64,000 nucleotides of DNA from Rhodocollybia butyracea. Taxonomy: Eukaryota; Basidiomycota; Agaricomycetes; Agaricales; Omphalotaceae. The stretch lies in the NCBI GenBank assembly GCA_015501585.1, contig JADNRY010000002.1, positions 1 to 64,000 of the forward strand, in the 5' to 3' direction. Positions 4,138 to 44,093 of the stretch are shown piece after piece. Each line of letters begins with the position of its first letter. Position 1 is the stretch's first letter. The notes below the pieces were generated by a model. That model was not told the DNA's origin and made no database searches. It saw nothing but the letters and a program-made list of their open reading frames with translations. The translations under genes and the position numbers were made by a program.

Positions 4138-5279
4138 AGAAGCAGGCGGCCGTACTAAACGCAATTTGGGCTCGGGTGATATGTGGGTCTGAAACGTGTT
4201 TTTTTACTGAATCTCTTGATGAAAATCCACGTTCTCTGTTGGCTAAAACCGATTTCTTCCCGGCAGACCAATGAATGTAAACTTTGAATTCCGATGTATC
4301 CATATCATAGTGATGTAACAAAGTTGTAAGCAAGTAAATGCAACGAGAGGGGGAAGAAACCGGCAATGGTCGCATTGAGAAAGACCTGGTCATAGTGGAA
4401 CATCGGCGTAGGACTGCCTCTTGGGTCTAAACGAAGCAGAGCCTCGTTCCCTTGTCACCCTCCTCCCAAACTCCTGCGAAATGCTCTCTCTAACCTTTTT
4501 CGCGTATCGGTATCCGAGCTTCGTCTAACGTTTGTGAGATGGAATTTCGAAGTTCGAGGTTGTTTTCCAACGCCTAACAGCCAAACAATGTAAACCCTGT
4601 GGTTGGAAATTTGAGGAAATGCATGCCCCGAAGCCGTGTCGTTATCATCAACGGCAAACATGTGTCCGTTAGTAGTAAGTAGAGAAGACACAAATATTCG
4701 GTAGTGAGTGGTGGACCTGGAGGTAAATTCTTGTTCTACTACTCGGTAATTTCAACGAGCTGTAAAGATTCAAGACGAAGGACTGTGACTTACCTCGAAG
4801 CAGACCATCGCAGTGATATTGAATCCACTTTCTTCGCTATTTCTGCTGACTTTCCCAACAGTTTTCCGTAGAGTGAACTGAGGAGGCAGAAATTGCAAAT
4901 TCTGTCCCTGCACCATCCAGCGTAACAACGCGCCAAAACCTGAAATCGTGAGAGTAGGGGGTCAACATTCAACGACTGCCACTAAATCAAGTAACACGCA
5001 ATCGAGTGAGTGCAAGGTTCCATATATTTCCACTAGTACTGTGTATGAACGAAGTAATATTCTTTTAAAAACGTACTGGGTGATTCCAGAGCTTCACACT
5101 ACAACGATGTGAACGAGGTTCAAACCACCCTGCCCAATCCATCGCTCGCCCGTTTCCCGACCAAGGCCTGTATGTCCGCCATATCCCAGTTCGACGGCGG
5201 TTAAGAGTGTTCCGACCTAATCGAGCGAGAGAAAAAAACCCCAAGTCAGTAATCAGCAATCGAAAGACATTTTTTTAGT
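4138..5279. other. Intergenic or unresolved small minus-strand gene
   Basis: Several short minus-strand frames (for example 4790-4972 and 5065-5259) end at plausible splice signals such as GTAAGT near 4793. I could not join them into a convincing protein. This is either the downstream region of the Rap1-like gene or an unresolved small multi-exon gene. Confidence 0.3.
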
Positions 5280-14114: not shown

Positions 14115-14842
14115 ATCGCTTCAACACATGTTGTGCCCTCCATTGTGCTTACTGCACTTGGTTAGACAGTGTTCAATGAACGTCCAACGCTCATTCCTGG
14201 AGTGTACGAAGTTCGCGTGTTGTGCATAGCTGGTCATGGTACATGGTAACATTCATGGATCGCATTTCTCTCCATTCCTGCATTGTTCAAAAATATACAT
14301 GACTTTGCACACTGACACACACATGTATTTACATAGGCACCCGATGATCGAACGAACTGTTTAAGGGCTTTGCTGTGATGGCATTCCCTTTAGGGTTTTA
14401 TTCCCTGCCAGGTAGACTTGGGGTCACCGCTATAATAGCCATAAAAGCGTTCATGTGCATCCGCTGGCAAACTGCGAACGATCATTGGGTTCTTGGCCTT
14501 CGTAGAATAATTGTACATACACATTACCTACCTGCTGCTTGCCTTAAGTTCTTCACATGCTGAAGGGATACTGTTCGATTGTGCTGCAAAGCACATCTGA
14601 ACGTTGACTGAACGCATATTCTTGGCATTCAGTTACCCTATTTGTGTTCCGATCAACTTAAGCGACTGAGTCCGAATTGGAATGATCGGATCAGTGGATG
14701 GAAAATGGATGGATAATTATATGCGATCAACACTAAAAACACTTGTCACGGGTTTCTGACTCTGTTGTTGTGATCTGAGTTCATAACTTGTGGAAGCACG
14801 TCACTGACTGTTGCTCTACTTTTTCTAGAACCTTATCAAAAC

Positions 14843-17800
14843 ATGTCTCTCTCAAACCTCTCTAGTGTTCCTCTCCTCAATGGGGCTAACTACCCCTCCT
14901 GGTCCAGTTCAATGACAGCGCTCCTTAGAGCCTCTCGTTGTTGGTCTGTTACAAGTGGACGAATCCCTCGCCCCAAACCAACATTCCGCAAGGCAAGCGC
15001 CTCTGAAGTTGCTGCTGGCACTTACAAGGCTAATGAAGATGTTGAGACCACCACTGCTGAACGGCAGAAAGAGATTGAAGACTGGGACAGCCTTGACGAT
15101 CAAGCCATGGGCTTAATTGCCCTCCGACTTCCTGATGACATCAGGGCTACTGTCCTAAAGACTGAATCTGGCGAAACATGGGACGAAATCAAAAAGATCT
15201 ATGGCAAACCCGGCTCTGCCGGCACTTTTGGCATCTTCAAAGAGGCCATTAACTTCCAAATCGACGGAAGAAACGACCCTACTCTTGCCCTAGCATCTTT
15301 AAACTCCACCTTCTCCCGCCTTGATGGCTCTGGTCTCATTCTTCCCGAACCAGTAAAAGCTATGATTCTCTTGGCCGCCTTACCTACTCAATGGGATAGT
15401 CTTGCGATGACAATCCTTTCTCGAGATGCTACTCTTCTTACTCCGTCCAACATCATGCCGATCATTCAGGACGAGTACCGCCGCCGCCAATCCAACGCTA
15501 CCTCACTCGCGGCCCGCATCTCCGGCGTCAAACGTCAATCTGACTCCAAGTCTTCTTGGAATGACCAGAAGAAGAAGAAGGACACTAAGAAGGGAGCGCC
15601 TTACCCGGCAAGCAAACCTTCCAACGACTCGTCCTCTTCTTCCGACAAAGACAAAAAGACACGCCGCGGAAAGAAAGGAGGAAAAGGCAAAGAAAAGGCT
15701 CATGAATCGGCTGAAGTGGAGACTTCCAATGTCTCCAATTTCGCCACCTGCCTTGCCTCGCGCATTAACGACAGCTTCCTCCGTGAAGCCTCCCACGACT
15801 CCGTCCTTGACAGGATGAAGATCGAGGAAGTAGAGGTCGATCTCTCTGATCACCTTTGGCCTCAGACCAAACTCGATATGGACATTGACGAGGAAATGTA
15901 TGGCTCTGGAGACGAGCGCCTTATTTTCTGGCAAGCTTCCCTTAATAGTTTTAAGGAAAAATTCACTGACCAATTGCACTCATTACAACAGATGTTCAAT
16001 AATATGGCTGGAATATCGAACGGTCCAAACGGACCTTATGTATCACATTCTCCACGCTTCTTGAACTCTGTACCTCCTAGTGAGGGTAAATTAAATAAAA
16101 TGGTTTCTAATGATGTGCATGGTGCGAATAAGAACCTTAGTCAGATATTTAACACATGGCTGCTTGATTCCGGTGCATCTGGATATTTTACCCCTTATCG
16201 GCAAGACTTTGTGTCTTATAAAAAATTCACACACCCGATACCTGTCCAGACTGCTGACGAACGTACGTCAACCTTTATTGAAGGTGCCGGGACAGTCTAC
16301 ATAAGGCATGACAACGGCGAAGGAAAAATCCTCACGACTAAGTTACACCCAGTGTTTTACCAACCGCATTGCACACACCGACTTCTATCTGTTGGTTTAT
16401 TAAATCGACAGGGTTGTTACACAACTATTAACGTTGAAAAATCAGTTATTCGTAAGACGGATGATGACTCAACAATCATGACCTTATATCCCAATAACGA
16501 CAGGGATAATATTCACTGGCTAAAGGCCGATGTAGTGAAATCTGAGATAGGCATGATATCATCTCCTAATGATTTTAACACCTGGCATAACCGTTTTGCA
16601 CATCCCGGTGATGTCGTATTACGCAATGCTCCTGGAAATGTCAACGGACTACCTAAGTTGTCAATACCAGATAAAGAATCTCCATGCAAGGGTTGCGCGC
16701 TTGGAAAGGCTGCCTCCAAAGCATATCCTAAGTCCGAGAAACGAGCATCCAACCCTATGGATTTAATTCATGCAGATTTGGTTGAAATCCCAACCGTCTC
16801 TTATCATAAATTTAAATTTGTGATCACTCTGCTGGATGACTGCTCTTCTCATGCTACTTCGATCATGCTGCGACAAAAATCAGAAGCGTTTCAAGCCTTC
16901 AAGGATTTCAAATCTTGGGCTGAAAAACAAACTGGACGCAAACTTGTGCGTTTCCGCATTGATCGAGGGGGAGAACTTATCTCAAAGGAATTTACTTCCT
17001 TTCTCAAGTCTGAGGGTATTGATATTCAAATGTCCGAACCTTATGTTCATCAACAGAATGGTAGAGCGGAACGTATCAACCGTACACTCATGGAAAAATC
17101 CGAAGCCATGCGACACCATGCATGCTGCCCGGAGTCCTGGTGGCAATTTTCATATTCCACAGGAGTACATGTGTACAACCGCACACCGATCCGTCGATTG
17201 AACTGGAAGACACCAATTGAAGGCTTTCTCAAAAAGAAACCTGATGTCTCGTACTTCAGAACCTTTGGCTGTGGCGCTTATGTCTTTATTCCTATTGACA
17301 AGCGAAAAAATAAACAATCCCCACACTCTGAAGCAATGACTTTCATTGGATATGACCAAGGAAGCAAAGGATATCTATTCATGCGTAGCGATAATTCCGT
17401 AGTGCATGCTGCACAAGCAACTTTCTATGAGAAATGGTTTCCACGGTGCAAATCCGAATCTGATTCTGGAGTAAAACCCGCTATACCTGTTGCCCCCACG
17501 CCTGTGAAACCTTCGCAACCTTCAAATGGTAATGGTGCAGACATTCCATTTGATCCGGAATTCCCGGAAGATCAACCACAACCGTTTACTGAACCGGATA
17601 ATGGACCGCACAGTCCACCAGCTGGCCCAGATCCAGATCTGCCTGGTGATGATGATGCTCCAAATCCCAATCCTCCGGTACCATCTCGATCACCCACCCC
17701 TCCACCTCAAGCAAGAGACCCTTCACCACCTGCTCCCGATCCTAATCCATTCAGCTACCGTCCCGAAGACGTTGAAGCATGGAAACGTGTGAACCCCACT

Positions 17801-19738
17801 AGAGAACGCCGTGCACCCTTGCGCCCTGGCATGATACCCACGCCTGGCACTTGGAGCCGACAAGCTGATCGTGAAGAACGTGCTGAGCGCTTTGGACACG
17901 CTAGACGTGGACTTGTGCCTGCTCGCAATATAGTTCCTGATCAAGTTCCACCACTGGTTCCACCACCACGTCCATTGAATCCTGATGACCGTATGGTCAC
18001 ACCGCCACCTCCAGGCGCTACTCCGGATTCTGACATAGAAGAGGAAGCACTTCTGACTAAACTAGCTCAGGAAGGGGGAGTTGAATTACAAAAATACCTT
18101 CTTTCGCAAGCAATCTCCGATTCTCTAGAAGAATCATCTTTTATCACAGATCTTGACAGTGAAATGATACCGGCTAAACACGAAGCCGCTAGGAATAATC
18201 CTGATAATTGGATTTCTCCAACATCATATCGTCATTTACCATCTGCTGAAAGAAAGAAATGGGATCAAGCATGCAAAGATGAGATCGATGGTTTGAAGAA
18301 ACGAAATGTCTTTGAAGTAGTTGATCTACCAAAAGGTCGCAAACCTATCCGTTGTCGATGGGTTTTTACTAAAAAATCTGACGGTCGCTATAAAGCCCGA
18401 CTCGTAGCAAAAGGTTTTTCACAAGTAGAAGGTGTGGATTATAATGAGTTGTTCTCACCGGTCGCCCGGTTTGAAACTGTACGAACTCTCCTAGCTTTAG
18501 CCGCATTAGAGGACTGGGAAATCCAGGCTCTTGACGTCAAACAGGCTTTTCTTTATGGCAAGCTAGATGAAGAGATCTACATGGAACAACCTAAAGACTT
18601 CATTAAAGAAGGCACACCAAAAGTATGGCGGTTACATCGTGCATTATACGGACTGAAACAAGCTAGCTTATCCTGGTGGAAGGAATGTAATGCCTCCATG
18701 GGAAAATTGGGATTTAAGCGCTGCTCTTCAGATGCTGGTGTATACGTCTTTAAATCAAATGGCAAAACCGTAACTGCCATCATCTATGTTGATGACGCAC
18801 TCTTTCTTGGCAAGGACAAAGATCTTGTTCTTAAAAAGAAAAACGAGTTTATGAAATTATGGGAATGTCGTGATCTAGGAGAACCAACTGAGTTCCTTGG
18901 AATGCGGATTACACGGGATCGTTCCAAACGTGTCTTAACACTTGACCAACAACCTTATCTTCGAAAGGTCATAGAACGTTTTGGACTGACTAATGCTAAA
19001 GCCACCCCAACCCCATTACCTTCATCCTGGGTTCCTCGTGCAAACACTGGTCGTGTAGATGCCAAACTTAGACAACGCTTTCAAAGCGTAATTGGATCTT
19101 TATTGTATCTGATGCTAGGCACCCGACCCGACATTGCTTATGCCGTTATAAAACTCTCACAGTATTCGGCGAATCCAAACCCAGACCACCTGGCCAAAGC
19201 ACTTTACATTGTGCGCTACTTAATTGGGACTTCTACTTACGTACTTGTCTTTGATGGTAGATCTGACCATGGCTTCTTAGCCTATTGTGATTCTGACTGG
19301 GCGTCAGATCCAGATGATCGAAAATCCCATACTGGGATGATTATCAAACTTGCCACAGGTCCAATCTGCTGGACTTCTCATAAACAGAAAACAGTTGCTC
19401 TTTCATCGACTGAAGCTGAATACATGGCTTTATCTGATTCATGTAGACAACTCATGTGGCTCAAGTCTCTCTTTTCTGAGATCGGAATTACTATCGCTGT
19501 ATTGCCCTTATGTGGTGATAATCAAGGATCAATCTTTCTGGGATCTAATCCTGTACAAGAAAGAAGAACCAAGCATATTGATATACGATATCATTATATC
19601 AGAGAACGCATTGAATCAAAAGAAATAGAACTCTTCTATGTTCCTACTGATGATAATGTCGCAGATCTTCTCACGAAGAACCTTGCACTTGTCAAATTTC
19701 AGAAATTCCGCAACAGTCTTGGAATTCTCTTTAATTGA
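14843..19738 (+). CDS. Copia Gag-Pol polyprotein
   Basis: One frame of 1631 residues with all domains in copia order. A Gag region (LNGANYPSWSSSM start) leads to a Lys/Ser-rich segment without a CCHC knuckle. The protease motif WLLDSGAS is at about residue 440. A pre-integrase HHCC module follows (HNRFAHPG, then CKGCALGKA). The integrase core has Asp, Asp and Glu in HADLVE (about 642), RIDRGGEL (about 706) and NGRAERIN (about 741). A Pro-rich linker precedes reverse transcriptase with IYVDDALFLG (about 1315). RNase H follows with YCDSDWAS, SSTEAEYMAL and a final DLLTK. No stop or frameshift was seen. It would make a cytoplasmic particle that copies its RNA and inserts the cDNA. Confidence 0.96.
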   Translation: MSLSNLSSVPLLNGANYPSWSSSMTALLRASRCWSVTSGRIPRPKPTFRKASASEVAAGTYKANEDVETTTAERQKEIEDWDSLDDQAMGLIALRLPDDIRATVLKTESGETWDEIKKIYGKPGSAGTFGIFKEAINFQIDGRNDPTLALASLNSTFSRLDGSGLILPEPVKAMILLAALPTQWDSLAMTILSRDATLLTPSNIMPIIQDEYRRRQSNATSLAARISGVKRQSDSKSSWNDQKKKKDTKKGAPYPASKPSNDSSSSSDKDKKTRRGKKGGKGKEKAHESAEVETSNVSNFATCLASRINDSFLREASHDSVLDRMKIEEVEVDLSDHLWPQTKLDMDIDEEMYGSGDERLIFWQASLNSFKEKFTDQLHSLQQMFNNMAGISNGPNGPYVSHSPRFLNSVPPSEGKLNKMVSNDVHGANKNLSQIFNTWLLDSGASGYFTPYRQDFVSYKKFTHPIPVQTADERTSTFIEGAGTVYIRHDNGEGKILTTKLHPVFYQPHCTHRLLSVGLLNRQGCYTTINVEKSVIRKTDDDSTIMTLYPNNDRDNIHWLKADVVKSEIGMISSPNDFNTWHNRFAHPGDVVLRNAPGNVNGLPKLSIPDKESPCKGCALGKAASKAYPKSEKRASNPMDLIHADLVEIPTVSYHKFKFVITLLDDCSSHATSIMLRQKSEAFQAFKDFKSWAEKQTGRKLVRFRIDRGGELISKEFTSFLKSEGIDIQMSEPYVHQQNGRAERINRTLMEKSEAMRHHACCPESWWQFSYSTGVHVYNRTPIRRLNWKTPIEGFLKKKPDVSYFRTFGCGAYVFIPIDKRKNKQSPHSEAMTFIGYDQGSKGYLFMRSDNSVVHAAQATFYEKWFPRCKSESDSGVKPAIPVAPTPVKPSQPSNGNGADIPFDPEFPEDQPQPFTEPDNGPHSPPAGPDPDLPGDDDAPNPNPPVPSRSPTPPPQARDPSPPAPDPNPFSYRPEDVEAWKRVNPTRERRAPLRPGMIPTPGTWSRQADREERAERFGHARRGLVPARNIVPDQVPPLVPPPRPLNPDDRMVTPPPPGATPDSDIEEEALLTKLAQEGGVELQKYLLSQAISDSLEESSFITDLDSEMIPAKHEAARNNPDNWISPTSYRHLPSAERKKWDQACKDEIDGLKKRNVFEVVDLPKGRKPIRCRWVFTKKSDGRYKARLVAKGFSQVEGVDYNELFSPVARFETVRTLLALAALEDWEIQALDVKQAFLYGKLDEEIYMEQPKDFIKEGTPKVWRLHRALYGLKQASLSWWKECNASMGKLGFKRCSSDAGVYVFKSNGKTVTAIIYVDDALFLGKDKDLVLKKKNEFMKLWECRDLGEPTEFLGMRITRDRSKRVLTLDQQPYLRKVIERFGLTNAKATPTPLPSSWVPRANTGRVDAKLRQRFQSVIGSLLYLMLGTRPDIAYAVIKLSQYSANPNPDHLAKALYIVRYLIGTSTYVLVFDGRSDHGFLAYCDSDWASDPDDRKSHTGMIIKLATGPICWTSHKQKTVALSSTEAEYMALSDSCRQLMWLKSLFSEIGITIAVLPLCGDNQGSIFLGSNPVQERRTKHIDIRYHYIRERIESKEIELFYVPTDDNVADLLTKNLALVKFQKFRNSLGILFN

Positions 19739-27190: not shown

Positions 27191-28775
27191 CACCAGGCCT
27201 GTATCTTGATTTCCGTAACGAAGAGTGTTATTATTCTTTTTTTTCACTCTAAAGCCTTCTAAAGCGAAGAGTGACTCTGGTGTGACACTCTGCTGTCATA
27301 TTACTGTGTTCCTCGCTCCAAAGCGAAGAGTGATTCAATTTCGCTGTATGATGAATGGCTTACTAAAATTCATTAAGCACCAAAACGCCTGTACTCCGGG
27401 TGCGACGAGAAGTAAAGTTATCATAGTAAGACCGGAAAAGTACTCAAGAGTCACAAGCGACAATGGAAGAACAGCTTTGATTAACAAGGCTTAGAGCGCA
27501 AAGGGTGATAGCTGAGGTGTCAGAAAGATCGTAGATGCGGGAATGCTGAAGTCAGATCCGATGAAGATCACCCAAGCCGCTACACCAGCAAAGAGCCACT
27601 TAGGTCAGAGTGCGCTCAGTCGTGTCCATTAAAACCAATATAACGCGCGCGGGCCACCAGGAGGAATGTCCTAAGCGAAATAAGAATGCGGAAAGGAGAA
27701 CAGATATTAAGGACGACTTTATGTAACCGTGGCTTTCAAAGAGAAAACATCAGAGCGATGACACGGGAGAGGTTGTGATGGTTTTGAGGAGAGATTTGAC
27801 AATCCTATATGTAGAGACTTGTCAGTATTGTGTCAGTGTAATGAGCATGTTGACGAAAAAGCCGTATGGATCATCCAAATCTTCTATTTGAAGCAGCCAC
27901 GCGAGTTCTATATGTGAAGGACTGACGCGTACACTCTTCTAATGTAGGGTATTGAATTTCTTTGCCATATATAAAGCCAACCGGATAACCATACGCACAG
28001 CGACGTGACAAATAAAGGATAGGGAAAGCTGACGTTGAATCCGAGAACATACATTGCAAAAGAACCTAATGGAGTAGATAATCGATAAGCGATAACGAAA
28101 CAGAATATGGAACCAGGAAGCTGCGACTTGCCAGGAGCCGATGAACGTTATGAACGTTCACAACTGCATTCCAACAGTCTAGTTTCGTTACCTCTCGTGA
28201 AGCCCAGGGACTGACAGCAGGAAACAATGACAATTACATTGCGGTCCTGTAGATTCGCCTTGTAAGAGGCCGTTTTCGTGTGGTGGTTAGTGAGTAACAG
28301 GCGCGTTCCGGGCGGAGCGATTCGGTAGTTCTTGCCGAGTTACGGCAAGTGATTCGACTCTCAGCACAATAACTTCGGGTTATTTGTAGTCCTCCAACTA
28401 TCAAGATTTTTAGGACTCCGAATCTTACCCGGTAATATGGAGCTTCCTGTGTATCTGGCACGGGTATTGGAGCTTGCGTCTTCCAAGCAGGCATTCGCAT
28501 CGAGTTTCGCGGGATCCTTCCTACAATGAACTGAACGGGATCCTTCTTGCAATGAATTATTTTCCAAAGCCAAAGCTGTAAGTCTCCTTTCTCCTCTAAG
28601 AATTCGCCCAGAGTCAGCTTTTCTCTGCTCTTTTCCTCCATCGTCACTGACTGTGCACATAGTTCTTATAATCTTGACCTCATTCGTTCATTCTCTTTTA
28701 TTCGTCTTTTGGTTTCGCTTCCAGCCTCTCGCACTCTTCCTTTGTGCCGTCGCCGCTGTTTCCATTGGACACCTG
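27191..28775. repeat. Repeated intergenic block, unit II
   Basis: Close to 32350-33563. Two copies of AAAGCGAAGAGTGA (27262-27335) lie 90-190 bp upstream of the TATA box, inside CT/GA-rich sequence. A hydrophobic minus-strand stretch near 27600-27780 corresponds to the frame at 32783-33016 but is interrupted. The CCGGGCGGAGCG and GCCGAGTTACGGC landmarks of unit I follow at about 28300. Confidence 0.65.
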
Positions 28776-33563: not shown

Positions 33564-33572
33564 ACGTTGTTT
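33564..33572. repeat. Target-site duplication, left
   Basis: ACGTTGTTT, repeated exactly at 41773-41781 on the other side of the Mutator-like element. Confidence 0.9.
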
Positions 33573-33700
33573 GGAAAGCGTGGCTGCACAAAACTTCGTA
33601 ATGCGCGACGCATAAGCGATAGGGTAATGTCATTTACTAAAGGCGTGTGTAAGAATTTCTCAAGAGCAGGTGACAGACAGATAACAGACAGATAAGATTT
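33573..33700 (+). repeat. Left terminal inverted repeat of the MULE
   Basis: Matches the reverse complement of about 41645-41772. Internal GACAGATAA-type units are repeated more often on the left. Confidence 0.88.
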
Positions 33701-34043
33701 TATTTAGATAAGATTGTTCTACCGTCGCGTCGCGTCATTAATCGCACAATCAGTTAGGCGCGCTCTCCGCTCTTTAGCCGCAGTTCCTTGGATTGACAGG
33801 ACGCTTCTCTTCTCCAGATATCACAAAATAAAAACCTGTCAACCGTCCCCAAAAGATCTAAGGGCCCGATACCGGAGGGAAACGCTCCTGCAGAATGCTT
33901 TATAGGCGTCATTTGGGGCTCTGTTTTCCCCCATTCTTTTCTCTTTTCTATCCTCTCGCTTTCTTGAAACCTTGCGTTCTCGTCCTCTCGCTTTCTCGCT
34001 TTCTCGCTCTTGCTCTCGTTTATTCCGTCCATCTGCTCGAAAA

Positions 34044-35330
34044 ATGCCCGCAGACCGTTTTATCAGTGCCTACGACGCAGATGGCAGAGCCACTGACTTT
34101 CCCTAGTACGTGTTCTCCTCTCCCTCGTTTATTTTATTATATGTTTCCGCTAAATTTATTTTCTAGCCCGTATGCAGCTAACGGCCTTCCTGAACTGCCC
34201 AAGCGCGTTGTTCAGATGCAATCCGAGTACGAAATAAACCTGTTCTGCGCGCATAGGCTACGCTGCAAAGTGTGGTACGTTAACCCGACCAGTAGTTTTC
34301 TTTGCTGTCCGAACCAGAAGAACCATCGTTGCGGTCTTTACCGTAAGTCGTTCCTTTATTTCCTATTAAAGCGGGTTTTGAATAGTTTCTTAGTTAAGAT
34401 AGACGATATCCATGCTCCTCTTCTTCAAGGGTATTGCGCCAGCCAAACGAAACCTTCTGGTCCATACCCATCTCCGCCCGCTTCACGCAAGAGGCCCTCC
34501 GTTAATTCAGAAACTAATACAACCCCTACAAAACGTCAGAAGAAATCGTCGAAGGTTCCTGAGTCTCCGCCTCTGTCTACCACTGCTACAGCTACCAGCA
34601 ACCTTCCTTCTCCGTACATTCCAAAAGGAACGTACTTTACAAGCCCCCCTTGGAGCTTAAGGGACCCCTTCTACCTGACGCTGACGATGATGGTGCGTAT
34701 TTCTTCCTTTCGCAAGTGGGAGAGTAGGACGTTTACATATTTTATATAGAAATTGTTTCGTTTTTCACCGACGTTAAAGATGCAACGGTGGGTCTTAAGG
34801 GGGTGCTTATCTACGACGATTCCAGTAAGTGTTATATCCCCCGTTTATCTACTGAACGTTATGAACAAATTTCTGGCAGAGACGTCTTTCGGGATTTTTA
34901 CGCACCTTTCCACCGTTGACATTGCCATCCTTATCCAGCAACTCAGAGACGTATTGTTCCCGGGAACTCGAGCTGGTAGGTTTCCTAGGCATTATGGGAG
35001 TTTTTTGCGTTCGCTGATTGATTTGCAGAGCTCATGCGCTTGATCCAGGACGTCCCTGGCGCTGGAATTGGGAAGAACAATGAAATGATTGGACCACCTC
35101 CGTTGCTTGCTACGGGTACGTCCCTTAACTTTATCCGTTCTCGACTTTTACAGTCCCACCAGGTTTGACGGCGGACGATCCTATCGATGTAGATTTAGGT
35201 ACGCTATCCTATTCTATCATTGAGCTAGCTAATACATTTTTTAGAAGTCGAAGTCTGCGCCGATTGTGGTTGGGAGGTTGACTCCGACATTCACTGGGAA
35301 CTTTGTTATGGTATGACTCGAGACGGTTGA
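34044..35330 (+). CDS. Unknown Cys-rich cargo gene of the MULE, multi-exon
   Basis: Exon 1 (34044-34105, MPADRFISAYDADG) joins by GTACGT/CTAG to exon 2 (34167-34342), which holds Cys/His residues (LFCAHRLRCKVWY, then CCPNQKNHRCGLY). Exon 3 (from 34430) is Ser/Pro/Lys-rich with a nuclear-localisation-like TPTKRQKKSSK. Downstream exons encode VSFFTDVKDATVGLKGVLIYDD (about 34752-34827), then pieces bounded by clear introns at about 34976-35029, 35116-35159 and 35200-35245. The last exon gives CADCGWEVDSDIHWELC, a CxxC...HxxxxC arrangement, before TGA 35328-35330. The frame through the end of exon 3 is unclear; a C6 run near 34650 may hold an indel. No family recognised. Two Cys clusters suggest zinc binding; a nuclear or DNA-related role is only inference. 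Confidence 0.55.
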
Positions 35331-35541
35331 ACCCAAACCTGCGCCTTGCTAGCTATTGGTGTACGAAACACCGCCTGTTTATTGTGCCTCAATACTTAAT
35401 CGCTCTAATCATTAAAAAAGAAATCAATAACTGTAATACTGTATGTACTCACTCGTTTATGCACCGTACCCAATATGATTGTAACTTGATCGTAACTTGT
35501 ACTTGAATGCAGAGCTCGTTGAGAAGTACTAATGGTATCGT

Positions 35542-37035
35542 TTATTCCAACATACTAAGTAACTCGTCTACTGTAGAATATAGACCTAAGCGTCGAGAAA
35601 CAGCTGTTGCCTTGTCCTGCATCATCTGGCGATAGCGAGCAGGGTCTGCCTTCTTTAAGTTATCCTCTGTCAAACATCCGTTCTCAACCCAACGGAATAT
35701 TGCTCCAGCGGTGTACTGAGTGAATGACGTTCGAACGTCACCTTCTGCAACCGGGGTGTTCGAGTGAGTGATGACGGCGGAGGGGATTAGAATGGTGGAT
35801 GCATGGGGAAAGTCGATAACGAGCTTCAACTCCCACAGAATGAGCTGCGCGCTTTGTGTTGCATCGAAATTCCCCAGTGCTGTAATGGCGCACCAGCCGA
35901 AAGTCCAGTTCTGGAAATCCCGGTGCTTGAATGTCCATACGTTTCCTCCAAAGTTAAACGCAGCAGCGCCAAAAACTCCACCCGGGAAGTTGTTCCGGAG
36001 ACTAGGCATCTTCTCCCACATGGTCTTCATTGTATTTTCGTACACCTCGTAGACCCTCGGGGCCCAAAGAGAAAACGCTGCTATTGAGAATGAATACCCA
36101 AATATGAGAGATACAGAAAAACTTACCGTTCTGATACATCGCCATCCTACGCACAGACTTGCGGCCAACAAGGCGCTCCAAAACTTCCGTCATATTCTTT
36201 GGATCCAGCTGGACGGGATGGGGGTTGCCCATACCCATGCTAGCCCCGCAATTGAAGGCCGGGAACCAACCCCGCGCACTGGCACCTTCGGGCGAGGTCG
36301 CCTCTAGTCCAGCTTCTCTACCTTCTCGCATCATCTCTTCAAATGCATCGCTAAGCTCAGAAGCATAGCCGGAGCCAGGTTGACCTGCAAGAACCCCAAC
36401 AATACGGCCAAAGCAATCAATGAGGGGAAACGGAGTACTAGGTAATTGGGGCTAATTAGAAAAATAACAGACAAATGGCAACAGATTGGCGTACATTCCA
36501 TCCCACTTGATATGCTGAAATCCCCGCTGAAGAAGTTCAGTCAGAGAATAAGTCCGACGCATATCTGCTTTGGAACCCCGTTGCTTTTTGGTCCCTGGTT
36601 TCGCGGTGTGGGCCCCCAGAGCAGCGTCGAAGTCGGCGGCGTTTAGATCGACTTCGATAGCGTTACCCTCTGACAGGACATTTGCAAGGGTTCGTTTTGA
36701 AGGCCCTGAGGCCGGAAGTTCTTCCTCTGCTTTTCGTTTTCGGTCCCCCGTCGCTTGGAGTTGCGAAGGGATTGAACGGCGGGATTGGGCTTTGAACAGG
36801 GGCAGGAGGGGAGGGGAGGAGTTTTGGGCTTCTTATAAAAGAGGGGTTGGAGTAAGGTGGCGGCTTTTGAAAGTAGGGAAGGGGAGGGCGGAAGTGGCGG
36901 CGGAGTAGAGAGAATATCCGAAGCAGGTTCTAAGTAGGAGTAGGGAAGCTGTGCTTGTAACGCTGCGTGTTCTCGAGCCCGTCGGTTAGCAGTCTGGCGG
37001 CGGCGTTTATCGCGGCGTCGGGAATTATTGCGCAT
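35542..37035 (-). CDS. TET/JBP-family 2-oxoglutarate/Fe(II) dioxygenase, MULE cargo
   Basis: The C-terminal exon (35542-36080) has the full double-stranded beta-helix signature: FKHRDFQNW with the first metal His (35923-35925) and Asp (35917-35919), and THSNTPV with the second His (35764-35766), followed 11 residues later by the Arg (35731-35733) expected to bind 2-oxoglutarate, in RTSFTQYTAGAIFRW. A 46-bp intron (36081-36126) leads to an exon with FNCGASMGMGNPHPV. A further intron (about 36391-36446) leads to RGFQHIKWDG, which joins to TPFPLIDCFGRIVG as in agaric relatives. The N-terminus is Arg/Lys-rich (RRRDKRRRQ). Frame is unclear at about 36730-36850. Fungal TET/JBP enzymes oxidise 5-methylcytosine or related bases in DNA, so a nuclear role acting on methylated transposon or host DNA is the natural hypothesis. 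Confidence 0.85.
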
Positions 37036-37903
37036 TTGAACCCCGTCCCCTCGTCTACCCCCAAATCGTCTTCTTCGTCAATTCCTAGGTCCCTGCCTAT
37101 AGGAATCTGAGGTGCATCTGCTATAGATGCTTGAGTAAGTGCCAGAAAGTCGAATCCAGGAGGGGCACTAAGGGTTGAACTCGCTGCAGAGTCTAGCGTC
37201 AATTCGGGTGGCTCTGGGAACCGCATTCTGTTGCTTACCGCGTTATTTAATAGGTAGATCATGTATTAAAATTATCCGTGTCTAGAAGAGGGTATAACTC
37301 TAATCAGCCTGTCAATCCTGGAGAAAAGGGAAGGAAGATACGCTGGAAGCCCCAAGCTTAACTTTTAGACTGGAGGACGCAGTTAGGTCCGATAGGGTCC
37401 GAACCAGTAGCCCTGCATCCTTAACAGCCTATCATAAAGCTCACAGGGCTTCCTAGGCGCGTCCTTACGCGTCGAATGTTACCCCGTCCACCCCAGAGGG
37501 GATCCAGAACTGAAGTTCCGATTCGCCGCTCTGAGGCTTCTGGGGTTTATTCATATGCGCTGAAATAAAGAGGAATATGGGCAGAGACTTACCTTAAGCT
37601 AACCGTACTAAGTTCCAGCGTTATCAGTCGTTGTAGTTGGTAGAAGAAAGGTAGTCAACGGAATCTAGCGCCTTGTTACGCGCCCACGTGATGGGCGCTA
37701 ATTCAATCACCATTATTCATTGACCGCCTCCTCCTCCACTCACAGTCCAGAAAGGACCAAATACTCGGACTGGAGAAGGATGAAATGCGCTTTTAATAGG
37801 TCAGCTTGTGCTGTTTTCTACGATTCAAATTGAGGAGACAAGCTACTTGTGAGTTACGCCGTAGTTTATAAGTAGTCTGAAGGCGTTGTCCTATACAGAT
37901 AAA
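37036..37903. other. Spacer inside the MULE, possible upstream exon
   Basis: A minus-strand frame (36930-37262) with an acidic GIDEEDDLGVDEG segment overlaps the start of the TET/JBP gene and may be its real first exon. From about 37270 to 37900 I see no gene; this is the region between the TET/JBP start and the transposase stop. Confidence 0.4.
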
Positions 37904-40900
37904 CTAATGTATCCCCCTTGAGATCTTCCGTATCTGCTTCATCTCCGGAGATGGAGCCCGAAGAATAGGACCGGATTGTGCACGAACGAGCTTCCGGGAC
38001 TTGATTCTGGGAATGGGATCGTTCTGCTGCTGCGGTGAAGCTGGAACGGAGGAAGGCGCTGGGTCAGAGGCTTTCGTGTCTGCAACAAGTAACTTAGACA
38101 GCGCGGAGGATAGAGAATCTAGCGTATGTATGAACTCCATTATCTCAGGGGTTTCACTGAGATCGGAAGCTCCTGCCAATGTGCTTTCCATTCCGTATAG
38201 TCGAGGAAGAAGGGACCTAGCTTCGTGTGTTATAAGATTACGGATCTGTGCATTAATCGAGGCTTTTTGTCCTTCATGAAGATTTGCAGGCTAGAAGGGA
38301 TCAGGATTAAATTCGTATTCGTTATAGGAATGAGCTGAACAAACCAAATCAAGGGGTTCAGAACCGCCCGTATCCAATGTATCAAAATCGCTATCACTGC
38401 CCTGCTCACTGTCGGGCTCATGATCGAGTTCACCACCTAACACGCTCATATCACCTCCAAGTGCTTGCAGAGCTCGCCAAGCAGATACATCGACTGTTTC
38501 CACAGGCAGAGGTAGCGGAAGTACCGCCTCAAGTGAGGGAGTAGACTCTCTAGGAGGTTCTGTGCGCTGTTTTATTCCTTGGGCGATTGCAAGAGTTGTC
38601 GGATAGCACAGCGGAGCGCATAATCCCTGGGCCACCCATGTCTCGATAGAAGTTCGAAACGCACGCAAGTGTTTACAAGCTCCCCCGCGACTGTAGAAAT
38701 CCGGACAGTTGCAGGATCCATTTCCGTTTCGATAGAGCTTGACCTCGTAGGGAGAAATGCCTGGTGTAGAGGAACTACAAAGGCAGGAGAATACATCCTT
38801 TTCGGGCGTGACAACTAGACCATGAAACCTGTTTGTTCTAATAATCTCTTTTGCTTGTATATCCGTGCGGTATCTGCTGGCCACCAGCACACACTTCGGA
38901 GAACTCAGGAACGTTCTTCCTTGGACTCAGCCAACTTCTTTTGTAAGTCTAAGAGATTGTGACCCCCAGCAGCCACGGAAAAGCGTTCATTAAGGAAACG
39001 ACGATGTTCCCGTAGGAGACGACGGTGGTTGTATATTTGAGGGAGGATTTGTGTGATTAGAAGGAAGATAAGGATATCGAACCGAAGACGGTGGCCAGAG
39101 TGTACGTGCTGTTGAATATATTTTCTCTTTAGAACTGCGTTGAATGATTCAAGGTGATTAGTAGTAGGGATGATGCCCTCGACTGGGATTCCTATTGCGG
39201 CTGCAGCGGTTAACCGACCCCACTCAGACCAGCTCTGCCAGAGTGCAAGGCTCATCCAGTTAGCGTCAAGGTAATTGAGGTGGGCAAGGCCACCCTCTGC
39301 TGCCAGCTTTGCTGTGTTATTCGTGAGTAGGCCAGTCAGGTACTCGCGTTGATTTGCAATTAAAGTAGTAGCACTAGAGTGCTCTACCGTCAAGATAAGC
39401 CTTAAAATCATACGTTAATAAAAATAGATGAGGGTAGAACTGCACGAACTTGGTCTCAAGAGTAAAGAGATTATTATTGACTTTATTACCCCACGAACCA
39501 ATGGATTCCGATACTTTGATCTTTACTGCCTTTTTGCGATGATTTGTCCAGCACTGTCGAAGATGGAACTTGCAAAGGAGGAGAATGATTGAAGCCCACA
39601 CGTTCAAGAGAGCCCCGCGCTCCTTTGTATCCATATCCGTGATACACGAGCGAGGCTCAAATGCACCATACCTGCGAACGATATCGGCCTTCCAAGTGGC
39701 CAGGAGCTTGGTAAGTATTACTGTATTGTACGATGCATGAGTCGCTTTGGCACCTGTGGACGCTGAGAATAGAAAAAATGCAATTGGAAGGCCCTTGCGA
39801 TCTTCGTCAATAGCCAATGCAATAAATAGCAAGAGTCGGGAACTGCATACGCCAAACGTACCATCCAACACCATTTGAGAGTGGTGAGCATACTTGTGAG
39901 CCGCTTCACACATCTCTGGAGTGGATATGCAGACCTCGAAACGGTCGCCGCGCTCTGCACGTTGGGAATAGTGGAAAACAGCTTCTGAGATCTCTGACCT
40001 GAAGTTTGGGCTATGAGGATTGAGCCAATCGTCCACGTTATACTGCGGAAGTTCCCGAGTATCAACTCCTAGTCCTTTGGCAGCCTTGCGATAGAGAGAG
40101 GAATGGTCCGTCGGGAGGAATATGTAACGAACATTAGCGGTGGTGGGGTTGTAAGTCTTCATGTCTCGATACAGCTTGGTATTAATCATCTCTTGATTCT
40201 TTTCCTGAATTGCAGTTATACTGAAACAAATAAGCTGAACGATTGAGCCCATGAAGTTGAATTTACCTTGCACCATTACGGAGCTGTTCAAGAGCAACTT
40301 CGTATACGTGTTCATGAAGCGGAACCGGAGGGCGACGTTCAAGAACAGCGTTTTGGCAAGCTGCGTTATGATCAAGTATCCCCGCAATCCAGCTGATACT
40401 GCCGCCATCGTGCTCGATGATTTCTACATGGGCAAGACAGCTTGTGAACGGATAAGGCGTAGAGCGTTCCCAGTCCTCTTTGTATTGACTGACACCTTTA
40501 CGCTCTTCCAGTTTCTGTCTAGATATATGGTCGTATCCGCAACGGCTGATATATGATTAGTATAAGTAAGTAACTGAAGTGGTGTACAAACCATTGAAAC
40601 AAAGTACGCTTTCGCGTGTTATTAGACCATTTTACTGAATGTCGAATGCTCCATCGCGTGGTAAGATCTTTGCGAGCATCTGAATCTAGCCCGAGTTCTT
40701 GTAGTTTCTTCAGGGCCTTCTGTTGCTGCAGTTGATCAAGCGAATATTCTTCTGAGAAGTGACGGAACGAGGCGTAGGTATTTTCGATGGCAGTTTTTTG
40801 CGCTTCGTTAATGCACAGTCTGGTTATTAAAACCTGGGGAAGTCTTGGGCGGAGTTTCTCTCTCAAAAACTTAGTGAACGTACATGCTTGTTTGTCGCCG

Positions 40901-41254
40901 GAATTATCGGGATCTTGAACAACGAGGAGTCAAAGGGGGTTATGGTTTGGACGAAAGGCTGTTTATTCTGTTTATACCATTTGTAACGTAGTATCTAGGA
41001 ATGCACTTACTGATGGAGCACGAAGGTCTTGAAGTGAAAAGGAACGGCGGGGAGATGTAGGAGTACTGTCTGACCGGGACCGTTTCAATGAAGCCTGCGT
41101 GCTCAAGTTAGTCGTTGAAAAAATGCTATAGATGGGCAGCACTGACGGGGTTCAGAAACGGGCTAGGTTCTTCGATTGAAAACATTGCCGTATTATTGAC
41201 AAACGGCGAGAGCTCCGCTGGATCTATGTGCGTAAAATTAGTACCTAGAGCCAT
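37904..41254 (-). pseudogene. MULE transposase with SWIM zinc finger, two apparent frameshifts
   Basis: Exons: 41147-41254 (MALGTNFTHIDP), 41011-41094, 40592-40958, 40267-40545, 39450-40220, about 38905-39400, 38345-38904 and 37904-38290. A CRCGYDH...CLAHVEI zinc-binding module in exon 4 precedes the DDE core. The core has the first Asp in LDGTFG, the second in ITDMDTKERGALLNVW, the MULE signature CKFHLRQCW, and the Glu in TTNHLESFN. The SWIM finger is CNCPDFYSRGGACKHL near 38680-38720. Two places need one extra base to keep the frame: the T5 run at 40865-40869 and the bases around 38907. Either the gene is dead, or the sequence has homopolymer errors. Family role: binds the terminal repeats and moves the element by cut and paste. 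Confidence 0.85.
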
Positions 41255-41644
41255 GGTACGGGCAGCATTTCGTTGTGTTTATCGCGGTTGAAGCTCAGAT
41301 TAGTTCTTGATTCCCCATCGTTGTTCTTGCACTCATGACCGCGCTCAATTCGGCCAGTGGTTGCAGATTTAAAAGCAATACGTAGATTAAGTAGGAGAAA
41401 AGAATGCTTTTGTATTCATTTGCCCCGGAGCTCTCGCAGATAGTGAGCGATCTTGACCCAGTGTTATATTTAAAGCTTGACATGAACCAGACGAAGGTTG
41501 TTGTGACATCGGAGCCAAGATACTTGCACTAGAGTAGAAGAGTGCTATGGATATCACATCACTGCCAATTTGGGAATGAAGATTACTGATTTTGAAACGA
41601 AGATCACCAATTCGGATGGCGAGTCCGAGTTCACGTTGCTTTCT

Positions 41645-41772
41645 ATCTATCTTATCTATTTATCTTATCTGTCACCTGCTCTTGCGAAAGTATTACACAC
41701 GCCTTTAGTAAATAACATTACCCTATCGCTTACGCGCTACGCTTTACGAAGTTTTGTGCGGGCGCGATTTCC
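41645..41772 (-). repeat. Right terminal inverted repeat of the MULE
   Basis: Reverse complement of the left end, with ACACGCCTTTAGTAAATAAC and CTATCGCTTACGCG blocks. It ends TTTCC at 41772. Confidence 0.88.
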
Positions 41773-41781
41773 ACGTTGTTT
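41773..41781. repeat. Target-site duplication, right
   Basis: ACGTTGTTT, identical to 33564-33572. Confidence 0.9.
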
Positions 41782-41802
41782 TAGCCGCCGCCGCTGTTTC
41801 CC

Positions 41803-42321
41803 GCAAATGCAGTCCCCACAAGCTTTACATAAGCATTGCATAACGCTCTCACAGCAATTAGCCGATATATTTGGGCTACATCTGGAGCAAAAAGTACTGC
41901 TTTAGTATAGCGGTTTTCGCGGCACCCTTGTTGTAATAAGCTTGAGGCTCGCTGTTCAATTCTCGCTTTTGGCAACTTTTTTTCTCCGTTATACAACTTT
42001 GCTAGCTAGCCGCTAGCGTTAGGTTAAGTTAGGTCAGGTTAGGCGTTAGGGTTTTTACGCCCGCGCGCAGCGCGGGTTGTTTAGGGTTCAGGGCTGGGTC
42101 AGTTAGGGTTCGGGGTTGGTTGGTTAGGGTTCGGGGCTAGGTTTAGGGTTAGGCGGGGGTCCGGGGGCAGCGCCCCCGCTTTAGCATTAGGGTTGAGAAT
42201 ATATACCAGGCCAGAGGCCTCTCAGTTTAGATTAACAGCCTGAGTGTGCAATTAAGCGCCAGGATCATAGCCACGGATTGTTATGTAACGCTTATGTAAA
42301 GTTTGTGGGGACTGCGTTCGC
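41803..42321. mobile_element. 519-bp non-autonomous element with telomere-like repeats
   Basis: Inverted ends of about 42 bp (left GCAAATGCAGTCCCCACAA, right as complement GCGAACGCAGTCCCCACAA, each followed by a CTTTACATAAGC-like block). A perfect 9-bp duplication CTGTTTCCC (41794-41802 and 42322-42330) flanks it. It has no gene. The 9-bp duplication fits a Mutator-like origin, but the ends differ from those of the 8.2-kb element. Confidence 0.82.
42015..42200 (+). repeat. Degenerate telomere-like repeats inside the 519-bp element
   Basis: At least six TTAGGG hexamers and several TTAGG or TCAGG variants, mixed with GGGGTT and a GC-rich palindrome (GGGGGCAGCGCCCCC). It is internal to a transposon, so it is not a present telomere. 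Confidence 0.8.
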
Positions 42322-42707
42322 CTGTTTCCCTTGTATAACTTGACACTACGCCAGCGTCAAAAAATATCGGGCGAAATTATTGCCAAAATTATTGTTGTAA
42401 TTGCTTACCTTTTTCGATAAAGATTTCGCGTGTAAATCTTTGATAATTTCGGCTGAAAAATATACTGTAATTGATTATGTTTTTCAATCCGAATTTCACC
42501 AGTAATCTGTTATCTATTTTGTCCGAAAAAGATAATGAAATTCCTTATCTATTTCATTAAAAATTTTGCTCGAAATTATTACAAGGTAATAACTGGCCAA
42601 GAACTGGGAGGCTTGGTCATGTGATGCATCTGACAATATTTTAGGTGAATGTGAGAGCAGAACTGGACAGAGGTGTAGCAATTTTATGTCTGGGTGTGAC
42701 TAGTGCA

Positions 42708-43373: not shown

Positions 43374-43990
43374 TTAATGTTCTCGGTGTTCTGATGATTC
43401 AAGTTCATTGTCTCTATTCCTAGAAGAGACATAATATTTAGTGAGGGCCGTGTGGTCCTCAATGCGTGTGATGGCTCTGACCATCACTTCTAATTTGGCA
43501 TACTCCGGAACGATCCCCTCGTTCGTGAGTTGCCTGATAATATTGAAGGGTAATCCCTCAATGAACCGTTTCCGCATTGTTGCATCATCCGGTGTTTGGA
43601 GCATCCGTGATGCCCATTGTGTAAGTGAGGAATAATAATCCCTCACACCCGTATCGGGTGAATACTCAATAAGGTCAAACTGCCGTGCAGCTTGATGAAT
43701 GGTCGTTGCTTGGATGCAACGATCAAAGACACCAATGATTGCACCTTCAAATGTCCACTTAAGGACAGTGCGGTGTATACCAGCGACTTCGTCATTATAC
43801 CAGTCAAGGGCTTTGCCCTGTAGAAACATGCCAAGCACGGCAGTCCGTGTAGCATCGTAATTGTCACCGCACATGCGGTTGACTACCATCCATTGGAGAA
43901 GTGACATTAGCCACCGCTCAAAGACATCGACATCCGGAGATCCATCATAGACCTCCGGAGATGGAACTTTAAGAGCTTTACGGCTCTCAA
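43374..43990 (-). CDS. Retrotransposon Gag core domain
   Basis: The frame 43374-43907 extends upstream to about 43990 without a stop (KVPSPEVYDGSPDVDVFERW). It has the layout of the retrotransposon Gag family: FLQGKALDWYND, then a helix with IGVFDRCIQ, then YYSSLTQWASRM. It ends at a stop after SSEHREH with no zinc knuckle and no pol frame behind it. A stop codon separates it from the upstream Gag-like frame. It would form particle shells if translated. Confidence 0.65.
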
Positions 43991-44093
43991 TGGGAGGGAT
44001 AGGATTCCCTACCTTATCTCAAATTTGTTAACGGTACACTTTGTGTACCTTGTGTTTCCATCGGGAACGACGTTCGTCGTCACCTGTTGTTTC

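Follow-up and report, generated by a model that had tools for sequence, protein, structure and literature searches.

A Mutator-like transposon with a TET/JBP-type dioxygenase gene in Rhodocollybia butyracea

Introduction

Several kinds of fungal transposon carry genes for TET/JBP-type 2-oxoglutarate/Fe(II) dioxygenases, a class known elsewhere for removing methyl groups from DNA. Kojima (2025; PMC12730594) lists eleven TET-bearing lineages: Kyakuja, Zisupton, Dileera, hAT7, IS3EU, PHISTA/Harbinger, EnSpm, ESTA, Plavaka, Helitron1 and Helitron2. As that paper describes them, these elements, like the one reported here, hold a transposition protein and a TET/JBP dioxygenase between their ends, with the same presumed purpose, and the dioxygenase genes of its AG type show no transfer between superfamilies. 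In Arabidopsis, VANDAL/Hiun Mutator-like elements (MULEs) are described as encoding an anti-silencing factor of their own, VANC, with loss of methylation on the element (PMC5735166). Here we describe an 8,200-bp MULE of Rhodocollybia butyracea that contains genes for a MULE transposase, a TET/JBP-type dioxygenase and a third protein, open reading frame 3 (ORF3). It lies in a window of 64,000 nucleotides, positions 1 to 64,000 of contig JADNRY010000002.1 (contig C494 in the 95.6-Mb assembly).

The element and its copies

The element occupies 33573-41772 of the window. Its left terminal inverted repeat (33573-33698, plus strand) begins with GGAAAGCG and its right one (41649-41772, minus strand) ends with TTTCC; the arms 33572-33677 and 41668-41773 are 88% complementary over 106 nt, and compared as a DNA match they reach about 125 bp at 85%. 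Perfect 9-bp target-site duplications, ACGTTGTTT, stand at 33564-33572 and 41773-41781, and an empty site (C505), with a left flank 98.6% identical across 621 bp, reads through element-free with one ACGTTGTTT. A perfect 9-bp duplication was found in all six gene-bearing elements whose two ends are readable (the window's, C212, C877, C547, C706 and C1272), the chance of a perfect 9-mer at fixed positions being 4^-9 per element.

The transposase gene (37904-41254, minus strand, start codon approximate) has its core at 39470-40207, with the motif CKFHLRQCW, followed by NHLESFN within 38932-39396, a SWIM segment at about 38600-38907 and a C-terminal tail that extends to 37904. It matches Pfam PF10551 with an E value of 3.2e-6 and 27.9 bits against a cut-off of 27.6, while its SWIM match (E 0.0045) stays under the cut-off; a Marasmius homologue reaches 35.1 bits for PF10551 and 21.5 against a cut-off of 19.6 for SWIM. 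The dioxygenase gene (35542-37226, minus strand, start codon and upstream exons approximate) has its catalytic exons at about 35542-36126 and 36132-36430. ORF3 (34045-35330, plus strand) is modelled with about six exons, the exon matches lying between 34044 and 35327; its product has a Cys/His-rich N-terminal segment, a basic stretch and a C-terminal CxxC...HxELC.

The features expected of a MULE are thus present together: a MULE-type DDE transposase, terminal inverted repeats (in C706, 33 nt at 91% and 21 nt at 90%) and target-site duplications of about 9 bp. A preliminary description of this stretch, made from its letters without database searches, had claimed inverted ends of about 130 bp, a perfect 9-bp duplication around 8200 bp, a MULE transposase and a dioxygenase with the HxD...H...R arrangement; each of these held up, the dioxygenase through the modelled fold of a close relative (below), though its own exon falls under the Pfam cut-off. 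These sequences show a three-gene Mutator-like DNA transposon of the autonomous type, whose inverted ends bound the mobile unit and whose insertion duplicates 9 bp of target.

The left end of this family, family A, matches 27 places in the genome, right ends and partial matches included. Besides the window's element there are three complete copies, C212, C877 and C547, each with its own perfect duplication (GTAGTTCGC, TTCATCGAT and TTGAACTTA, respectively) and with the identical gene order ORF3, dioxygenase, transposase. A further copy, C1017, is truncated by its contig end, with ORF3 and dioxygenase present. One extra insertion in C877 and three in C547 all fall within the transposase half. 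Between the TET and transposase genes, C212 and C877 have some 290 bp (L009 4513-4804; L010 6165-6456) that the window's element and the C547 copy lack. Identity to the window's element changes along each copy, from 98% up to position 4180 to 90% beyond in C212, from 97-99% up to 5357 to 86% beyond in C877, and from 91% up to 3361 to 96-98% beyond in C547, as if the copies were mosaics of recombined subfamilies. Short copies of 546-557 bp with family A ends have perfect duplications at C869, C114 and C549 and a 7/9 match at C994, so the ends also move without cargo; an end pair 8.2 kb apart at C728 has an 8/9 duplication.

A second family, B, is represented by the 8,354-bp element of C706, 66-72% identical to the window's over matched stretches. 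Its ends are related to those of family A but different in sequence (the stretch GCATAAGCGATA is common to the left ends of both), its duplication is ATCACTTAG, and it has all three genes in the order seen in family A. C1272 is a 5,521-bp deletion derivative of family B, 99.3-99.9% identical to C706 and flanked by GGCGATGAG, which has lost the transposase core and retained dioxygenase and ORF3. C525 is a relic holding small remnants of all three genes.

The search for further copies proposed in the preliminary description therefore found transposase and dioxygenase together between matching 9-bp duplications in four of four complete copies. Copies lacking the dioxygenase, or a dioxygenase nested as a separate element, would have spoken against the pairing. 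The enzyme is present at five of the six loci that have this transposase core, and at the sixth, C993, the contig edge falls where the dioxygenase would lie if the common gene order holds; we saw no sign of nesting. These observations support the dioxygenase as a regular component of the element, which is real, repeated and under selection. At the other PF10551 loci (C820, C645, C627, C819, C499 and C561), none of the best 110 of 150 TET matches lies within 8 kb.

Selection on the genes

Between families A and B the C exon of the dioxygenase has a proportion of nonsynonymous differences (pN) of 0.073 and of synonymous differences (pS) of 0.662, giving a rough nonsynonymous to synonymous rate ratio (dN/dS) of 0.048, and the N exon gives a similarly rough 0.049. 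Such low values make a useless passenger unlikely. The transposase has a pN of 0.20 in the core, 0.24 in the b exon and 0.395 in the SWIM piece, with pS saturated. Within family A, comparison of the window with C212, C877 and C547 gives dN/dS of 0.20-0.50 for the enzyme, with few changes to count; the transposase gives 0.06-0.10 with C212 and C877. The dioxygenase is thus part of the element, and purifying selection has acted on it since before the two families split.

The dioxygenase and its relatives

Pfam Tet_JBP is matched by 6 of 46 dioxygenase relatives (best E 4.8e-6) and, across the whole genome, at only four places, all under its cut-off. The profile misses the family, and fold and residues are the better test of membership. 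A relative 86% identical to the window's enzyme models as a TET fold, and a TET-type double-stranded beta-helix with HxD...H...R is predicted on that basis. HxD is found in all seven MULE-linked enzymes and in 92 of the 97 rows of the tree set. The MULE-linked enzymes therefore lack the HxE hallmark of Kojima's PE type. Nor do they have the Gly/Ser and Asp that mark the AG type at positions 331 and 337 of CcTet, the Coprinopsis cinerea enzyme; with equivalence set by offset from the His, Asn and Cys stand there in 46 of 46.

Protein relatives were taken from the best 120 matches of each search. The dioxygenase tree has 97 rows and 176 columns, with 48 external rows (of 120 listed and 485 found); it was midpoint-rooted, and the row KDZ_C1268 (coverage 0.59) was left out. 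The MULE-linked enzymes fall in a clade of 28 with proteins of Lentinula, Gymnopus, Collybiopsis and metagenomes (support 99.1/100), itself within a clade of 35 that adds Marasmius and Paramarasmius (93.1/99). Some R. butyracea genes inside the clade of 28, such as those of the C470/C556 unit, have no MULE match nearby, suggesting that the cargo has moved or that carriers have been lost.

Homologues of the transposase made up 323 of 7994 scored candidates. Apparent same-contig pairs of transposase and enzyme occur in Marasmius sp. AFHP31 (8,394 bp, locus tags 001598 and 001600) and in Lentinula aff. lateritia (36,637 bp), with 54-56% identity to the window's transposase and 50-67% to its enzyme, values compatible with long joint descent of the two genes. 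A Lentinula raphanica pair, on a 2.1-Mb scaffold, was too loose to be counted. Judged by the same-contig pairs, the dioxygenase has probably been kept by selection from before the split of Rhodocollybia from Lentinula and Marasmius. ORF3 has nine homologues, five in R. butyracea elements, one on a short metagenome contig and three in Lentinula; one of these, from L. edodes, lies on a 10,170-bp contig equal in size to that of a TET protein. Within the genome ORF3 occurs in seven elements (the window's, C212, C877, C547, C1017, C706 and C1272), in the C525 relic and at C118.

The element contains no Kyakuja-Dileera-Zisupton (KDZ) transposase. The genome gives 150 scored TET matches, with some genes represented by more than one fragment. 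With one position taken per KDZ locus, 24 of the best 110 have a KDZ match no more than 8 kb away, and none of the 27 with at least 50% identity has one, the window's included. The KDZ-linked TETs, for which linkage means proximity within 8 kb and does not imply carriage, belong to the same enzyme family at 31-46% identity, with Asn and Cys in 11 of 11 tree rows and HxD in 9 of 11. The tree with KDZ-linked enzymes that the preliminary description had called for sets them apart, and its MULE-linked clade includes no row from a gene near a KDZ or Plavaka match. Plavaka transposases, too, have TET genes in their neighbourhood in this genome, proximity being judged by eye. On the residues compared, then, one enzyme family without the stated AG and PE hallmarks occurs within MULEs as well as close to Plavaka and KDZ matches.

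The TET genes at C533, C904, C25, C158, C437, C983, C713 and C561 are about 2.6-6 kb from Plavaka matches; seven have HxD and one HxN, although the published Plavaka-borne TETs are assigned to the HxE (PE) type. One repeat, about 6.3-6.9 kb long (L030, C470, 1396-8288; L031, C556, 1888-8184; 88% identity over the main 5.5 kb), holds a TET gene that resembles the window's at 64-65%, together with a 228-amino-acid frame in convergent orientation and without a Pfam match, and we recognised no transposase in it. A TET relic at C222 is flanked by long inverted repeats (L029 608-1107 and 6957-7429; 357 nt at 88% and 123 nt at 85%), a duplication not being established.

Methylation traces

We compared transitions at CpG with those at other C/G positions, counting as CpG every site where at least one of the two copies has CpG and sorting transversions into identical classes. 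Against the window, the frequencies are 0.107 and 0.060 in C212, 0.112 and 0.057 in C877, and 0.152 and 0.038 in C547; between C706 and C1272 they are 0.032 and 0.003. The excess at CpG is significant (Fisher P 1e-6 to 2e-30), transversions show little or none, and the pattern is the one that deamination of methylated CpG would leave.

Other features of the window

A small non-autonomous element with ends of the C706 type lies at 41803-42321 (about 520 bp), separated by 21 bp from the larger element's right duplication, between perfect copies of CTGTTTCCC at 41794-41802 and 42322-42330; it too is missing from the empty site C505. Neither it nor ORF3 figured in the preliminary description. Elsewhere in the window are an uninterrupted 1654-amino-acid frame at 14774-19738, a Ty1/copia-type polyprotein by eye, a tRNA-Met gene on the minus strand (28091-28190) and a Gag-like frame at 43374-44018 (Retrotrans_gag E 0.014, under the cut-off).

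Proposed function and alternatives

The reading that we favour, with somewhat more confidence than doubt, is that of a MULE with TET and ORF3 whose enzyme counters host methylation. The host, in whose genome C5-methyltransferase matches lie on four contigs, would methylate CpGs within element copies; the TET protein would oxidise 5-methylcytosine (5mC) in element DNA; and methylation would then be lost via dilution or repair, so that the transposase gene and the ends stay usable. ORF3 may act as a partner in recruiting the enzyme to the element, and it is our guess that it binds DNA or targets the enzyme. The system would resemble VANC of the plant VANDAL MULEs, with an enzyme instead. Removal of methylation to escape silencing fits the evidence and is a likely role.

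Several observations weigh against this. Only the window's matched transposase frame is free of stops; there are six in C212, one in C877 and two in C706, some perhaps intronic, and the C547 frame is split by insertions. For the transposase, the window and C547 differ by few changes and give a dN/dS close to 1; between families A and B synonymous sites approach saturation (dS about 1.6), which is what makes the enzyme's ratio rough. In the C1017 TET the alignment of the C exon contains a stop, and the C1272 TET has Gln in place of the Arg. The window's dioxygenase exon matches Tet_JBP with an E value of 0.015 and 15 bits against a cut-off of 34.9, and the enzyme shares about 10-15% identity with solved TETs. 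For ORF3, Pfam gives no confident domain (GRF at E 0.28 in one homologue), and its structure model is useless (predicted local distance difference test score 37.5). The pairs in other species are deduced from contigs of equal size and from locus tags. CpG is not depleted in the element (observed/expected 0.98, against 0.88 in the rest of the window), so that heavy methylation cannot have lasted long.

A doubtful alternative, though the strongest of those considered, is that the dioxygenase works chiefly in trans, on the genome at large or on the host, as a general methylcytosine oxidiser at repeats and not as a self-directed anti-silencer. The genome is rich in TET matches, with those near KDZ matches joined by others near Plavaka, and Kojima (PMC12730594) speculates that Agaricomycete AG-type enzymes are without target specificity. 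Yet selection holds this enzyme in a moving element alongside ORF3, which in this genome is confined to the seven elements and two further loci (one a relic of such an element), and a gene useful to the host alone need not remain between MULE ends. It is improbable, in our estimate, that oxidised cytosine serves as a mark for the transposition machinery (in target choice, post-replication timing or repair) and not as a step of demethylation. TET enzymes do leave 5-hydroxymethyl-, 5-formyl- and 5-carboxylcytosine as products, and oxidised methylcytosine is described as accumulating around transposons in Coprinopsis and Laccaria (PMC12730594); the parallel with VANC favours anti-silencing instead. 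We know of no link between oxidised cytosine and MULE transposases, and count this against such a mark.

MULEs are described as tending to pick up host gene fragments (PMC6446971), and a host TET gene might have been caught in the manner of a Pack-MULE, with no function for the element. The dioxygenase, however, sits in the same place and orientation in every complete family A copy and in family B, its dN/dS is about 0.05 across families, and same-contig pairs recur in other genera; the selection test largely refutes an accidental passenger, to which we give very little credence. Beyond the favoured reading of a MULE-borne enzyme countering methylation, a bolder version would make the element a complete self-targeted demethylation machine, with ORF3 binding element sequences and bringing the TET to them, a fungal and enzymatic counterpart of VANC of independent origin within one transposase superfamily, and its enzyme a fourth TET type beside PU, AG and PE, common to MULE, Plavaka and KDZ carriers of the Agaricales. 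We regard this combination as unlikely as it stands.

Comparison with known systems

Our literature search, with closed-access papers and Repbase outside its scope, found no description of a MULE with TET. The preliminary description knew of no account of this pairing and named KDZ as the established partner; carriage by superfamilies other than KDZ is already published for several lineages (PMC12730594), and it is Mutator/MuDR that is absent from the eleven listed there. The present element differs from those lineages, as listed, in its 9-bp duplications, long inverted ends and additional ORF3. Its enzyme has HxD where the PE type has HxE, and Asn and Cys where the AG-type Kyakuja enzymes reportedly have Gly or Ser and Asp. 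CcTet itself (PDB 8jkk, 7w5p, 7vpn) is 11% identical to the enzyme and has Gly in place of the Asn, like N1387 of hTet2, that is invariant in the present enzymes and would make activity on N6-methyladenine less likely in them. The kind of system is known and the Mutator carrier new within the searched literature, the purpose being likely rather than proven. If the reading is right, it extends the list of TET-bearing transposons by a carrier not yet on it. The element is also a compact natural test system for self-protection by a transposon-borne TET, being 8 kb long with three genes and accompanied by an empty site and by a deletion derivative in which TET and ORF3 are retained and the transposase core is lost.

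The nearest functional parallel, on the published account of the VANDAL elements, is VANC (PMC5735166). The likeness would be one of role, between a plant protein and a predicted 5mC oxidase in a fungus. VANC is a sequence-specific DNA-binding protein and is not known to be an enzyme. If a fungal Mutator element has reached VANC's end with a demethylating enzyme, escape from methylation would seem to be a recurrent need of the superfamily.
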